Positions 1-64,000 of a DNA stretch of 64,000 nucleotides are shown here, piece by piece. Positions within the stretch are counted from its first letter, which is position 1. Every line of letters starts with the position of its first letter. A program made the translations under genes and the position numbers. Origin of the DNA: Planctomycetia bacterium (lineage in GTDB: Bacteria; Planctomycetota; Planctomycetia; Pirellulales; JACPPG01); assembly GCA_016191115.1 (NCBI GenBank), contig JACPPG010000015.1, positions 83,802 to 147,801 on the forward strand, read 5' to 3'. The notes under the pieces were generated by a model that searched no databases, had not been told where the DNA came from, and was given only the letters and a program-made list of their open reading frames with translations.

Positions 1-257
1 TCGCCTACTATTCGCCGCTCGACGACCTGAAGGACCGCGTCAAGCGATTGCGGCTGTGGAGCGAAGCCGATCTGCCGGGTCATTTCGCGGTGCCGGGGGC
101 GCTGCGCACGAAAGTCGTGGGCAAAAGCGCCCTGGCCGCCGTGCCCAACGTGACGCAGGAGTTGGTCGACGATCTCCGCAAGCGATGGCACGCCGAGGTG
201 CGCGTCGAAGATCTGAACCTGGAGGAAATCTTCGTGGAGCTGAATACCCATGCGTGA
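1..257 (+). CDS. ABC transporter ATP-binding protein, C-terminal fragment (5' end outside window)
   Basis: Open frame from base 3 to the stop at 257 (AYYSPLDDLKDRVKRL...VEDLNLEEIFVELNTHA), typical ABC-2 ATPase C-terminus; overlaps the downstream permease ORF by a few bases. Confidence 0.75.
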   Translation, partial: AYYSPLDDLKDRVKRLRLWSEADLPGHFAVPGALRTKVVGKSALAAVPNVTQELVDDLRKRWHAEVRVEDLNLEEIFVELNTHA

Positions 258-2493
258 CGCCACACGGGCAAGCTCAGCGACACTCGGGATTCGGCCCGCG
301 CGGGCGGATGGGATGCCGGGCGCAGTCCGCCGCGCATGGTGGATCATCGTCAGCTACCTCACGCGGCCGATCATCTGGGCAGTCGTCGGGTTCGCCATCG
401 TCATGCTCGGCATCGATCTGTTTGCCGGCCGAGGCCGGTCGTCATTCATGTGGACGTATCCGCAGCCGCCCGGGCCGACGTTGCAGATCAACTCGCGAGG
501 GAAGCTCGAAAGCGTCCGGAAGGTCCGGCGCGAGGGCGAGGTCGACGCGATCATGCTTTCGGCCCTGTGGTTCGACATGCATCGCAACGGCGTGGAGCAA
601 CGGAAGGGAGCGCCTCCCGCCGCGCGTCCGGTGCAAGGGATACCTGCGCCGACGGAGGACTACTATCGCGTCCTCGACGAGTTTCCGAACTTGCGACAGG
701 TGGAGTACACGTGCTTCGGCGAACCGATCGGTTTCGACCGGGTGACGCAATTGGCGGGTGTCGAGTACCTGACCGTCGACGGCGTCTGCGCGCTGGATTT
801 CGCCAGGCTCAGCCCGCTCCGCCAACTCCGCGAGCTGATCGTGCAGACAAGCCAGCCGCCGGAGCACGTGGCGGCGCTGGCGAAGTTGCCGCGATTGGAG
901 ACCGTCGTCTTCCGCTCGCGCCTGGCGATCAACGACGACGTGCTGGCCGAGCTTGCCGAGCTTCCACACCTGAAGGTGCTGGTGCTCGATTTCGGCTATC
1001 AGCATCCATCCGAGCCGCGGCTGACGAAGGCCGGGTTCGACGCCCTGGCCAGCGCCCCGGCGCTGGAAACGCTCTATGTGGGAGGGCGCCCCGAGTGGAG
1101 CGACGACCAGATCGCGCTGGCCCGCGCGGCAATGGCCGACAGGAAGGTTGTCGTCGAGCCGGCGGTCGCGCTATCGGCGTTTTCGCCGCCTGAATTCTTG
1201 CATTTCCTGCCGTTCGCCATTTTCGCGGCGGTTGTTGGCGCGCAACTTTCCAGTCAATTCCGCAGCCCGGCGCGGCGGCTGGCCCCGGGTTTTACGGCGA
1301 GCCACGCTCTCGTGGGAATTGGCCTGTGCGTGACGATTGCCGCGTTGTGCGCGGCGCGGTTCGTCGCCACGGGCACCGTCTTGGCTTCGGCCATCGCCGT
1401 GTCGGCCGCTGGCATCGCCTCGGCGGTCGGGGGAACGGCGCTTACTTCGCTCGTCCCGTCGTACGAGGTCAAGGGGACCAAGTGGTGGTCGCTCTTGCCG
1501 AGCGCCGTAGGCTTAGGGCTCATGGCGATGCTCTTTCACCCAGCGCTTTCGGACCAGGTGCTGCGCCATCCCGACCGCCGCGTGTTGGCCGTGTTGTGGC
1601 TGGCGGCAATTGCCTGCGTAGCCGCCACGGCATGGGCGCTGCGCAATCTCGTCTTCTGGTCCACGAGCTTGCCGATCACGGCGCGAAACGCCGGCCAGCC
1701 ATCGGACATGTGGGCCGGCCGCTTTCGCGAGGGTTGGTGGTCCGCGGGCGGTGACCGGGAACAGCGAATCGAGGCATGGTCCGGCCGCTCCGCAAGCGAT
1801 TGGACGTGGTGGCAGCGCATCGCGCGCTGGCAAATCGGAAACCCTCCGCTGCGGATGGTGCGACTCTCGTTGTTCATGGTGGCCATGGTCCTGGCGGGCC
1901 AGTACGGAATCCTTTGGTTGGCGGGCATGAGCGACAAGGTGTCGTGGTCCACGGGGTTGTGCTTCGCCGCCTGGATGATCCTGGCACAAACGACGATGCA
2001 GATCGCCGGCATGTGGCGAATGCGCTTAGCTGTGTTGCCGCTGGAGATGACGCGCCCCGTCGCGCGCGGCGCGCTACAACGCGAGTGGATCGCGGCGTAC
2101 ATCGCCGACCTTGCGCCGAGCACCGCCGTGGCGGCGGCAAGCGGCGCGCTAGCCGTCAATATGGCCGCGCCCACCGCGATCGACTGGCCGTCGCTACCGC
2201 TCGACTTCCTGATCTTGTTTCCCGCGGCACTCACGTTGGCGATCGGGGTGGGCAGTTTGCTGATTGTCGTGCGACGATTCTGGTTGGCTTTGCTGGTGGT
2301 ATTCGGCGTCATATGGCTGACGGCTGTCGCGCTTGTGGGCATGACCGTAGTTCGGGGCGGCGGCCCAGGCTCCCTTACGGCCGCCGATTTCTCGCGACAG
2401 ATGATGGAAGGGCAATCGTGGATCCTCGCCGCGATCGGCGCCGTTCTCGCCGCCTTCGCCGCCCGCCGCTGGATGCGGATGGAATGCGCGTAA
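250..2493 (+). CDS. Multi-spanning membrane protein, probable ABC-2 type permease with an extracytoplasmic LRR-like domain after TM1
   Basis: 747-aa ORF overlapping the ABC ATPase; one N-terminal TM, then regular leucine-spaced repeats (LAGVEYLTVDGV, LSPLRQLRELIVQ, LAKLPRLETVVF, LAELPHLKVLVL), then many TM segments. Confidence 0.7.
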   Translation: MRDATRASSATLGIRPARADGMPGAVRRAWWIIVSYLTRPIIWAVVGFAIVMLGIDLFAGRGRSSFMWTYPQPPGPTLQINSRGKLESVRKVRREGEVDAIMLSALWFDMHRNGVEQRKGAPPAARPVQGIPAPTEDYYRVLDEFPNLRQVEYTCFGEPIGFDRVTQLAGVEYLTVDGVCALDFARLSPLRQLRELIVQTSQPPEHVAALAKLPRLETVVFRSRLAINDDVLAELAELPHLKVLVLDFGYQHPSEPRLTKAGFDALASAPALETLYVGGRPEWSDDQIALARAAMADRKVVVEPAVALSAFSPPEFLHFLPFAIFAAVVGAQLSSQFRSPARRLAPGFTASHALVGIGLCVTIAALCAARFVATGTVLASAIAVSAAGIASAVGGTALTSLVPSYEVKGTKWWSLLPSAVGLGLMAMLFHPALSDQVLRHPDRRVLAVLWLAAIACVAATAWALRNLVFWSTSLPITARNAGQPSDMWAGRFREGWWSAGGDREQRIEAWSGRSASDWTWWQRIARWQIGNPPLRMVRLSLFMVAMVLAGQYGILWLAGMSDKVSWSTGLCFAAWMILAQTTMQIAGMWRMRLAVLPLEMTRPVARGALQREWIAAYIADLAPSTAVAAASGALAVNMAAPTAIDWPSLPLDFLILFPAALTLAIGVGSLLIVVRRFWLALLVVFGVIWLTAVALVGMTVVRGGGPGSLTAADFSRQMMEGQSWILAAIGAVLAAFAARRWMRMECA

Positions 2494-2695: not shown

Positions 2696-2852
2696 CAGGG
2701 CCATTCTGTTTTTCAAAATGGCGAGGCGGGAAAATGGGACTGGCTCCGAGCATAAGCAGCGCAAGTCCTTTCAGACCAACGTTGCGTCTCGGTGCCTGTC
2801 CCACTTTCCCGCCGGTGCGCCGCCGGCAAGCTTGAATCTGTGAATGGCGCTG
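2696..2852. mobile_element. 157-bp palindromic MITE/REP-like element, family 2, copy 1
   Basis: Ends CAGGGCCATT ... AATGGCGCTG; internal 26-bp stem 2725-2750 / 2788-2813; a second 157-bp copy at 24747 and a window-truncated copy at 63864 (136/137 identical over the visible part). Confidence 0.8.
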
Positions 2853-2898: not shown

Positions 2899-4107
2899 TC
2901 ACGCCGTCGTGGGCTTGAGCAATTCAAGCGGCGCGAAATGGCCGCCGAGAATCGGCTCACTCGGCACGTTCAGCCAGCGCTCGAGCACCGCCGCGTATAC
3001 CTGGCGAAAGTCGATGGCCATCCTCACGTCGCCATCCTGCAAGTCCGCGAGATTGGGCGTAGGGCCAAAAATGCCGGCCGCCAACTTTGGCCCGGCCACG
3101 AACACGGGGCTTGCCGCGCCATGGTCCGTGCCGGCCGAGTCGTTTTCCGCCGCCCGGCGGCCGAACTCGCTGAACGCCAGCACCAGCACGCGATCCGAAA
3201 GGCCGCTCGCGGCCAGGTCGTCGAGAAACGCCGCCAGCGCGCCGGCAAACACCCGCAGCAATTGATAGTGCTCGTTCGCCTGAGCGGCGTGCGTGTCGTA
3301 GCCCGATTGCGCGGTGTAGAGCACGCTGGCCGGGGTGCCGGACTTGATCATGGCGGAAATCAATCGCAACTGCTGGGCGAGCGCCGAATCGGAATACGCG
3401 CCGTCCCGCGACCGATCGCCGGGCTGGACGAACGTGGCCAGCCGCTGGGCCGTCGTGAAGGCCTCGTCCGCACTGCGCCGCGCGAGCTGCGCGAGTTCGC
3501 CATCGACGCCGACGGCCGACGCGGCCCGCAGCGCGTCCGCCGAAGCGGCCAGCGACAGTTCGTCGGCACTCTGCATCGAGGCGACCGTGCTACGCCGCCC
3601 CCACAAGGTCACGGGCACCGCGCCCGAGCCGACGAACACGGCGTCAGGCCCGCCATCGCCCGCGCGGCTCTGGTCCAGCGCGCGGCCCAGCCACCCGTAC
3701 TGGCCGTGCTCGGCATTGTCGAGCCGCGCCGACTGCCAGATGGCCATGCTGCGAAAGTGCGACCGGTCGGGATTCGGATAGCCGACCCCCTGCACCACGG
3801 CGAACCGCCCGTCGTCGAAGAGCGACCCGGCGGCTTTCATCGCCGGGTGAAGGCCGATCTCGTCGCCCATCTTAATCACGTTGTCCGGCTTGATGGCCAG
3901 TTTCGGCCGCAACCGCGCGTAGTTTTCGTCCCGATACGGAATGACCGTGTTCAGGCCGTCGTTGCCGCCGTCGAGCTGGATCACCACCAGCACGCGGCCG
4001 TCGCTCTTCTGCCCGGCGGCGAGCGCCGTTCGCGCCAAGAACGTGGGCACGACCGGCGCGAGCGACAACAGCACCGACTCTTTGAGCATTTCGCGTCGCG
4101 ACAGCAT
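2899..4107 (-). CDS. DUF1501 domain-containing protein (sulfatase-like fold)
   Basis: 402 aa; MLSRREMLKESVLLSLAPVVP...VLVVIQLDGGNDGLNTVIPY, Tat-like N-terminus, GTDHGAASPVFVAG motif. Confidence 0.95.
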   Translation of the reverse strand: MLSRREMLKESVLLSLAPVVPTFLARTALAAGQKSDGRVLVVIQLDGGNDGLNTVIPYRDENYARLRPKLAIKPDNVIKMGDEIGLHPAMKAAGSLFDDGRFAVVQGVGYPNPDRSHFRSMAIWQSARLDNAEHGQYGWLGRALDQSRAGDGGPDAVFVGSGAVPVTLWGRRSTVASMQSADELSLAASADALRAASAVGVDGELAQLARRSADEAFTTAQRLATFVQPGDRSRDGAYSDSALAQQLRLISAMIKSGTPASVLYTAQSGYDTHAAQANEHYQLLRVFAGALAAFLDDLAASGLSDRVLVLAFSEFGRRAAENDSAGTDHGAASPVFVAGPKLAAGIFGPTPNLADLQDGDVRMAIDFRQVYAAVLERWLNVPSEPILGGHFAPLELLKPTTA

Positions 4108-24692: not shown

Positions 24693-24746
24693 GGCGGCTA
24701 TTATGACGAGAGCCTCCCTGGCAGTCCAGTTTGATCGTGCAGCGAG

Positions 24747-24903
24747 CAGGGCCATTTTGTTTTTCAAGATGGCGAGGCGGGAAAATGGGACTGGCTCCGA
24801 GCCCACAGCGTGCAAGCCCCTTCCAACGAAGGTTGCGTCTCGGTGCCTGTCCCACTTTCCCGCCGGCGCGCTGCCGCTCAGTGTGAATATGTGAAAGGCC
24901 CTG
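24747..24903. mobile_element. 157-bp palindromic MITE/REP-like element, family 2, copy 2
   Basis: Ends CAGGGCCATT ... AAAGGCCCTG; stem 24776-24801 / 24839-24864. Confidence 0.8.
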
Positions 24904-24914
24904 GTGGAACGAGC

Positions 24915-35165: not shown

Positions 35166-35256
35166 GTTGAAAAAAGGGGGACTGGCTCCGAGCTATGGCA
35201 ATCGTCCGGCAGCACTTCCCCTCGTCACGGCGAGGTGCCTGTCCCCCTTTTTCAAC
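35166..35256. repeat. Hairpin GTTGAAAAAAGGGGGACTGGCTCC / GGTGCCTGTCCCCCTTTTTCAAC immediately after the gmaS stop
   Basis: Left arm 35166-~35189, right arm ~35234-35256; shares the CTGGCTC...GTGCCTG core with families 1 and 2. Confidence 0.85.
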
Positions 35257-44642: not shown

Positions 44643-44720
44643 GGGGTCTGGCTCATTTTTCGGCACACGCGGCCTTCAATCTTTTGAAAGGACCTTCGGC
44701 CGAAAAATGTGCCAGACCCC
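44643..44720. repeat. REP-like hairpin, family 1 copy, flanked by 12-bp direct repeats
   Basis: Left arm 44643-44664, right arm 44699-44720 (21/22 complementary); GGCGATTGCCGG at 44616-44627 and 44748-44759. Confidence 0.85.
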
Positions 44721-44762
44721 CTCTCCCCGGACTTTGCAGTTCTCCTGGGCGATTGCCGGGCA

Positions 44763-55070: not shown

Positions 55071-55285
55071 GGTCTAGCTCATTTTTCGGTCGGGGGTCTG
55101 GCTCATTTTTCGGCCCGGGGTCTGGCTCATTTTTCGGCCGCCAGAAGTCGTTTCTCACTTCCAGCCTGCCGGCCGAAAAATGTGCCTGACCCCCTCTGCA
55201 CAACGCAGGGCCCGGCTCATTCTTTCGGCCGCAAGAGAACCGTCTCTTGCTTCCAGCGCTAGCGGCCGAAAAATCTGCCTGCCCC
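55071..55285. repeat. Family 1 hairpin cluster with three tandem left arms and a second diverged hairpin
   Basis: GGTCT(a/g)GCTCATTTTTCGG at 55071, 55095 and 55119 (24-bp period); right arm 55171-55194; second pair 55208-55230 / 55264-55285. Confidence 0.88.
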
Positions 55286-60596: not shown

Positions 60597-60648
60597 CGTT
60601 AGTTAGCCGCGTGTTTCCAGCCCAGCGGGCGTGCGAAATAGCCCCGTA

Positions 60649-60733
60649 GCCCCGACAGGGGCGGCAGTGTGTAGCCGTGGGCGGCAGCCCACGGGCCGCG
60701 GCGCCCAACGATTCCCGCAAGCCCCAACGGGGC
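60649..60733. repeat. Cluster of short GC hairpins
   Basis: GCCCCgacaGGGGC (60649-60662), CCGTGGGCggcaGCCCACGG (60675-60694), GCCCCaacGGGGC (60721-60733). Confidence 0.65.
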
Positions 60734-63760: not shown

Positions 63761-63809
63761 CGAAGCGCCAGCGAGGGAACGCTCCGGCCGGTCCCTCGCT
63801 GGCGCTTCG
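63761..63809. repeat. Hairpin CGAAGCGCCAGCGAGGGA / TCCCTCGCTGGCGCTTCG plus an extra half-arm
   Basis: 18-bp perfect arms 63761-63778 and 63792-63809; additional TCCCTCGCTGGCGCC near 63826-63840. Confidence 0.8.
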
Positions 63810-63863
63810 GGCTGGTGTGGGTTTTTCCCTCGCTGGCGCCTAAGAAACGCGCCACGGCCGGCC

Positions 63864-64000
63864 CAGGGCCATTCTGTTTTTCAAAATGGCGAGGCGGGAA
63901 AATGGGACTGGCTCCGAGCATAAACAGCGCAAGTCCTTTCAGACCAACGTTGCGTCTCGGTGCCTGTCCCACTTTCCCGCCGGTGCGCCGCCGGCAAGCT
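63864..64000. mobile_element. 157-bp palindromic element, family 2, copy 3 (truncated by window end)
   Basis: 137 bp visible; 136/137 identical to 2696-2832; stem 63893-63918 / 63956-63981. Confidence 0.8.

Follow-up and report, generated by a model that had tools for sequence, protein, structure and literature searches.

A 157-bp MITE family with ISAs1-like ends and a REP-like palindromic interior in a planctomycete genome

The window analysed here, a 64-kb stretch of DNA, contains a palindromic 157-bp sequence in three places, which raises the question of what kind of element it is and how it came to be repeated. We conclude that this sequence is a true MITE and represents a new family with a modular, hairpin-carrying interior. 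In the explanation that we favour, to which we give a probability of about three in four, it is a non-autonomous DNA transposon most likely mobilised by ISAs1, its ends took up resident palindromes, and the version with the type A palindrome was amplified in this genome.

Window copies, element anatomy and genome-wide spread

BLASTN within the window, with copy 1 as the query, recovered all three copies that had been picked out from the letters alone. Copy 1 (2696-2852, plus strand; 157 bp) is full length, sits between the convergent ORFs 250-2493 (plus) and 2899-4107 (minus), and has a private change in its right end, GGCGCTG for GGCCCTG. Copy 2 (24747-24903, plus strand), also full length and 85% identical to copy 1, is an older copy and lies immediately upstream of an ATG at 24914. 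Copy 3 (63864-64000, plus strand) comprises element positions 1-137 and is 99% identical over these 137 bp; it is incomplete because its contig (C65) stops at base 147801 of 147801. Three further contigs (C2, C3 and C11) likewise end inside copies, so the assembly breaks at the 157-bp repeat.

The element is bounded exactly by CAGGGCC...GGCCCTG, its consensus runs CAGGGCCATTCTGTTTTTCAAAATGG ... CTTGAATCTGTGAACGGCCCTG, and its two ends pair as CAGGGCCATTCTGTTTTTCAAAATGG / CAGGGCCRTTCACAGATTCAAGC. Read inward, both ends follow CAGGGCC(A/G)TTC..TTCAA(A/G), with CAA at positions 19-21, and form imperfect terminal inverted repeats of ~22 bp. In copy 1, the left end (2696-2716, plus strand), which is conserved among copies, is CAGGGCCATT with the TTCAA box at element positions 17-21, and the right end (2832-2852, minus strand), which reads inward as CAGGGCCRTTCACAGATTCAA on that strand, has the form CAGCGCCATTCACAGATTCAA. 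Between the ends is an imperfect REP-like palindrome, here called type A, GGCGGGAAAATGGGACTGGCTCCGAG..CTCGGTGCCTGTCCCACTTTCCCGCC (2725-2813 in copy 1), with two T-T mismatches that recur in free-standing copies. At 157 bp the non-coding element is too short for a transposase, and no transposase-gene remnant can be recognised in its interior. The whole element is predicted to fold as RNA at -79.3 kcal/mol (z -5.4 versus shuffles), and no Rfam family matched at the MITE copies.

The arm motif GGGACNGGCNCCGAG has 439 matches on the plus strand and 428 on the minus strand of the 6.03-Mb genome, and the reversed pattern, used as a control, has none. A BLASTN count, which the sequence-only reading had proposed as a check, gave 130 copies in 1.43 Mb of sampled sequence (91 per Mb). 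This density extrapolates to ~550 copies, an estimate that leans high as the sample was largely placed around known matches; the first 0.63 Mb sampled gives ~530. We therefore place the copy number at ~430-550, or ~1.1-1.4% of the genome. At least 40 copies genome-wide are 97-100% identical, and full-length copies match the consensus at 97.5% of positions on average, with a pairwise divergence of 4.6%. A few older copies, window copy 2 among them, are at 78-88% identity. The element may well be active at present.

Four other genomes of the genus (G001-G004) contain 0, 0, 0 and 1 arm motifs, the single one being a chance match outside any hairpin, and neither the element nor its end has a counterpart in any of them. 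These congeners are thus essentially without the family, and the burst is lineage-specific. The window copies are members of this genome-wide family, so there is no evidence for the single recent duplication over 61 kb that had been proposed; what took place was a genome-wide burst that the four congeners do not share. With several hundred copies in one species and none in its congeners, the family makes a clean system for finding the transposase and for studying the choice of targets.

Target-site duplications, empty sites and target preference

The flanks of the copies are unrelated to one another, and similarity stops sharply at CAGGG/CCCTG. The abrupt divergence first seen at one end thus holds at both, and homology never runs past 157 bp. 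Among 81 full-length copies, 33 are flanked by an exact 10-bp direct repeat. The number rises to 49 if one mismatch is allowed, where flanks paired across different copies predict 0.04, and to 52 if two are allowed, which leaves about a third without a recognisable target-site duplication (TSD); 9- and 11-bp repeats are rare. The earlier statement that there was no clear TSD is correct for copy 1 and wrong for the family, most copies of which have one of 10 bp. For copy 2, the repeat is GTGCAGCGAG on the left (24737-24746, plus strand) and a decayed GTGGAACGAG on the right (24904-24913, plus strand), identical at 8 of 10 positions.

Empty sites were found in the same genome rather than in relatives. 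At L120:8975 and L062:10183 the element is nested within a second repeat family, uninterrupted members of which, at L130, L134 and L137, carry the target once. This second family is itself MITE-like, with long inverted ends AGGATCGACCGAAAAATAACTTC (L134:7715-7825, L137:3955-4067 and L130:17808-17924). Neither of the two outcomes that the sequence-only reading had named as fatal to its proposal, homology extending beyond 157 bp or a lack of empty sites, was observed.

Insertion points avoid long reading frames, the median stop-free stretch spanning them being 951 nt versus 1564 nt at random positions. The trinucleotide CAA occurs at position -21 of the target in 14 of 48 distinct sites (~1 expected), and 12 of them have TTG at the mirrored place beyond the TSD; the two are seldom found together. 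A single target CAA box is 18 nt from the far junction, which is the spacing within the element's own ends.

The initial description of the sequence as MITE-like is supported: it is short and non-coding, ends in imperfect terminal inverted repeats, is present in many copies that lie preferentially between genes, and is flanked in most of them by 10-bp TSDs. The bacterial MITEs RUP, NEMIS/Correia, Nezha and MITEAba12 are similarly short, non-coding, bounded by terminal inverted repeats, multi-copy and intergenic. In contrast to these, the 157-bp family has a 10-bp TSD, several hundred copies in one species and a REP-like interior that differs from genome to genome within conserved ends.

The very stable fold and the intergenic location would also suit a hairpin under selection, such as a small RNA, terminator or regulatory element, that was spread by recombination and not by transposition. 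Such an origin is barely plausible, as the copies have 10-bp TSDs, unrelated neighbouring sequences and no Rfam family, are near-identical to one another and are absent from congeners. As the means of spread it is refuted by the TSDs and empty sites, and secondary regulatory effects of the inserted hairpins are possible.

A shared end module around different palindromes

Of the 397 genomes of the order, only 5 contain the left end at up to three mismatches: the source genome has 354 matches, G015 has 16, G202 has 5, and G204 and G301 have a single match each. In G015 and G202, such ends bound elements of 134-150 bp that have 10- or 11-bp TSDs and other interiors, namely a type C (GTAAGCGAGG..CCTCGCTTAC) or type B (GCGCCAGCAAGGG) palindrome in G015 and a type D palindrome (CATGGCCACGG/CATGCCCACG) in G202. 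Related ends surround a type C palindrome in G204. All four types also exist free of these ends: type A in G020, G024, G036 and G364 and once in the window (35166-35256, GTTGAAAAAAGGGGGACTGGCTCCGAG..GAGGTGCCTGTCCCCCTTTTTCAAC), types B and D outside these MITEs in the source genome, and type C in G202. The simplest reading is that one end module has been combined with different resident palindromes. As the same module surrounds other palindromes in related families of elements, carried by distant relatives from other families within the order, it seems that the ends gained resident palindromes on more than one occasion, the direction of acquisition probably being capture of palindromes by the ends.

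Other palindromic repeats lie close to the window copies. A type D palindrome, CATGGCCACGGAGGTGCTCCGACGTGGCCATG, is located beside copy 1 at 2527-2562 and has 76 half-sites in 1.43 Mb. Just before copy 3, at 63767-63837, is a type B palindrome, GCGCCAGCGAGGG..CCCTCGCTGGCGC, a variant of which forms the MITE interior in G015 (L174). A further repeat, GGCCGAAAAATGTG..CTTTGCAGTTCTCCTG, occurs at 2602-2690, 44664-44750 and 55114-55190, with 59 half-sites in the 1.43-Mb sample and none for the control.

An exact 27-bp end had no matches among IMG/VR viral contigs. Among the three matches listed for a degenerate end pattern in GTDB contigs, two were without a convincing paired end and the third was too near the edge of its locus. 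Searches of open-licence papers brought up no description of this element, either as a MITE with a REP interior or as a planctomycete MITE.

Like REPs and REPINs, the interior consists of two inverted half-sites that form an imperfect palindrome and keep their mismatches, and palindromes of types A-D are free-standing in some genomes, as is expected of REP/REPIN sequences. One reading of this resemblance is that the element is itself a REP/REPIN mobilised by a REP-associated tyrosine transposase (RAYT) through HUH chemistry, its outermost 27 bp at either end being incidental, and three Y1_Tnp (PF01797) genes are indeed present in the source genome. We consider this highly improbable. The 10-bp TSDs adjoin CAGGG and not the palindrome. 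The 1.43-Mb sample has 248 type A half-sites, of which 246 belong to MITE copies and the remaining two form one free-standing copy. None of the three Y1_Tnp genes has such a palindrome within ~1.5 kb, and inspection at the base of type A hairpins revealed neither GTAG nor CGTC, the tag of REPs and REPINs (PMC3733652). A Y1_Tnp/RAYT protein was accordingly rejected as the mobiliser, and the palindromes are termed only REP-like because the tag and RAYT features are lacking. Unlike REPs and REPINs, the MITE spreads by a mechanism based on terminal inverted repeats and TSDs, and has no adjoining RAYT gene.

The family thereby links two classes of small repeats that are usually treated apart, MITEs bounded by terminal inverted repeats and REP-like palindromes. 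If the ends do capture resident palindromes, part of the genomic hairpin load may stem from captured hairpins that were transposed.

Candidate transposase and one-end-truncated copies

Inverted repeats of the ISAs1 family begin with CAGGG and its direct repeats are 10 bp (PMC11946415), and ISArsp11, an ISAs1 example, has the same signature including the 10-bp direct repeats (PMC6305408). Both features are present in the MITE. Elsewhere in the order, five full ISAs1 elements begin and end with CAGGGC and are flanked by exact 10-bp TSDs, and the right end of another at L084 (PF13808 plus PF01609, no TSD), CAGGGCAATCGCACGTTCAAG, contains a TTCAAG box at positions 16-21. The MITE differs from these insertion sequences in having no transposase gene and in ends that agree with theirs in the first ~6-10 bp only; no exact partner was found.

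The search for a transposase with matching terminal inverted repeats, suggested along with the initial description, found none in the source genome or among the ISAs1 matches of its relatives. In particular, no transposase with PF13808 and PF01609 was located between matching ends, and the element is therefore filed as a MITE with ISAs1-like ends and not as an ISAs1 member. G015 and G301 have no PF13808 match, G202 has PF13808 with different ends, and G204 has it in interrupted frames. The source genome has no DDE_Tnp_1 domain and only one ISAs1 fragment, the N-terminal part of a transposase (PF13808) that runs off its contig at L034:1-290 (edge of C55), and its 5' end, CAGGGCGATTGCGCC, matches the MITE end in the first bases alone. 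Its truncation by the end of the contig hints that the assembly may have collapsed or lost ISAs1 elements. With 93 contigs and 94% completeness, the draft could lack a multicopy transposon.

The lack of a cognate ISAs1 element and the confinement of end similarity to the first bases leave room for a DDE transposase of some other family. We think this rather unlikely, given that the combination of CAGGG ends and 10-bp direct repeats is published as characteristic of ISAs1 and is displayed by ISAs1 elements of the same order. An ISAs1-type partner is the more probable one.

In the transposition mechanism that we propose, the enzyme would be a DDE transposase, with ISAs1 as its most likely family. 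It would recognise bipartite ends, made of the terminal CAGGGCC and a TTCAA(G) box that starts 17 bp from the tip, and its insertions would have a 10-bp stagger and fall mostly between genes. The end module would have acquired resident palindromes more than once, and the type A version would then have amplified to its present copy number in the source lineage.

Simple cut-and-paste leaves one feature of the family unexplained, namely that in about one copy in five a single end is missing, with the break at the internal TTCAA box. Of the 130 copies, 15 have left breakpoints at positions 16-20 and 12 have right breakpoints at positions 136-143, with few breakpoints elsewhere. Two of the 15 in the left set have full ends with small internal deletions, and the other 25 one-end-truncated copies have no TSD that we could see. 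Comparison of their flanks with G001-G004 was informative for L128 only, and in part for L122. At L128:1128 the adjoining threonine aldolase gene lacks its first ~47 codons, which are kept in the congeners, so at least this copy carries a flank deletion; the truncated copies at L122 and L141 seem to have little or no flank loss. A simple deletion between the target CAA box and the element CAA box was rejected as a general cause, as it does not fit the reading frames at L122 and L141.

The truncations may be ordinary later deletions near the TTCAA box, favoured by local structure or microhomology, with no second mode of insertion. The missing TSDs and the codons lost from the threonine aldolase gene agree with this, whereas random deletions would scatter and not cluster as these breakpoints do; we rate it as a real possibility, just short of even. 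A broader and unlikely proposal is that the end cassette repeatedly takes up REP-like palindromes because the hairpin is functionally required (for example, to bring the two ends together or to shield the element), that the transposase uses TTCAA in the ends together with CAA/TTG in the target, 18 nt from the far junction, and that copies lacking one end as far as this box arise by a second insertion mode.

Among the truncated copies is the second member of a tandem pair at L111:14850-15156, in which two elements are exactly 10 bp apart (one TSD) and the second is truncated at the right TTCAA box. Genes that we take to be of the DUF1559 type are present at L141, L010 and L138 and, together with an Acido-Lenti-1 RNA in the window, support a planctomycete origin. 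This RNA (RF01687) is on the minus strand at 60648-60694 and scores above the gathering score.
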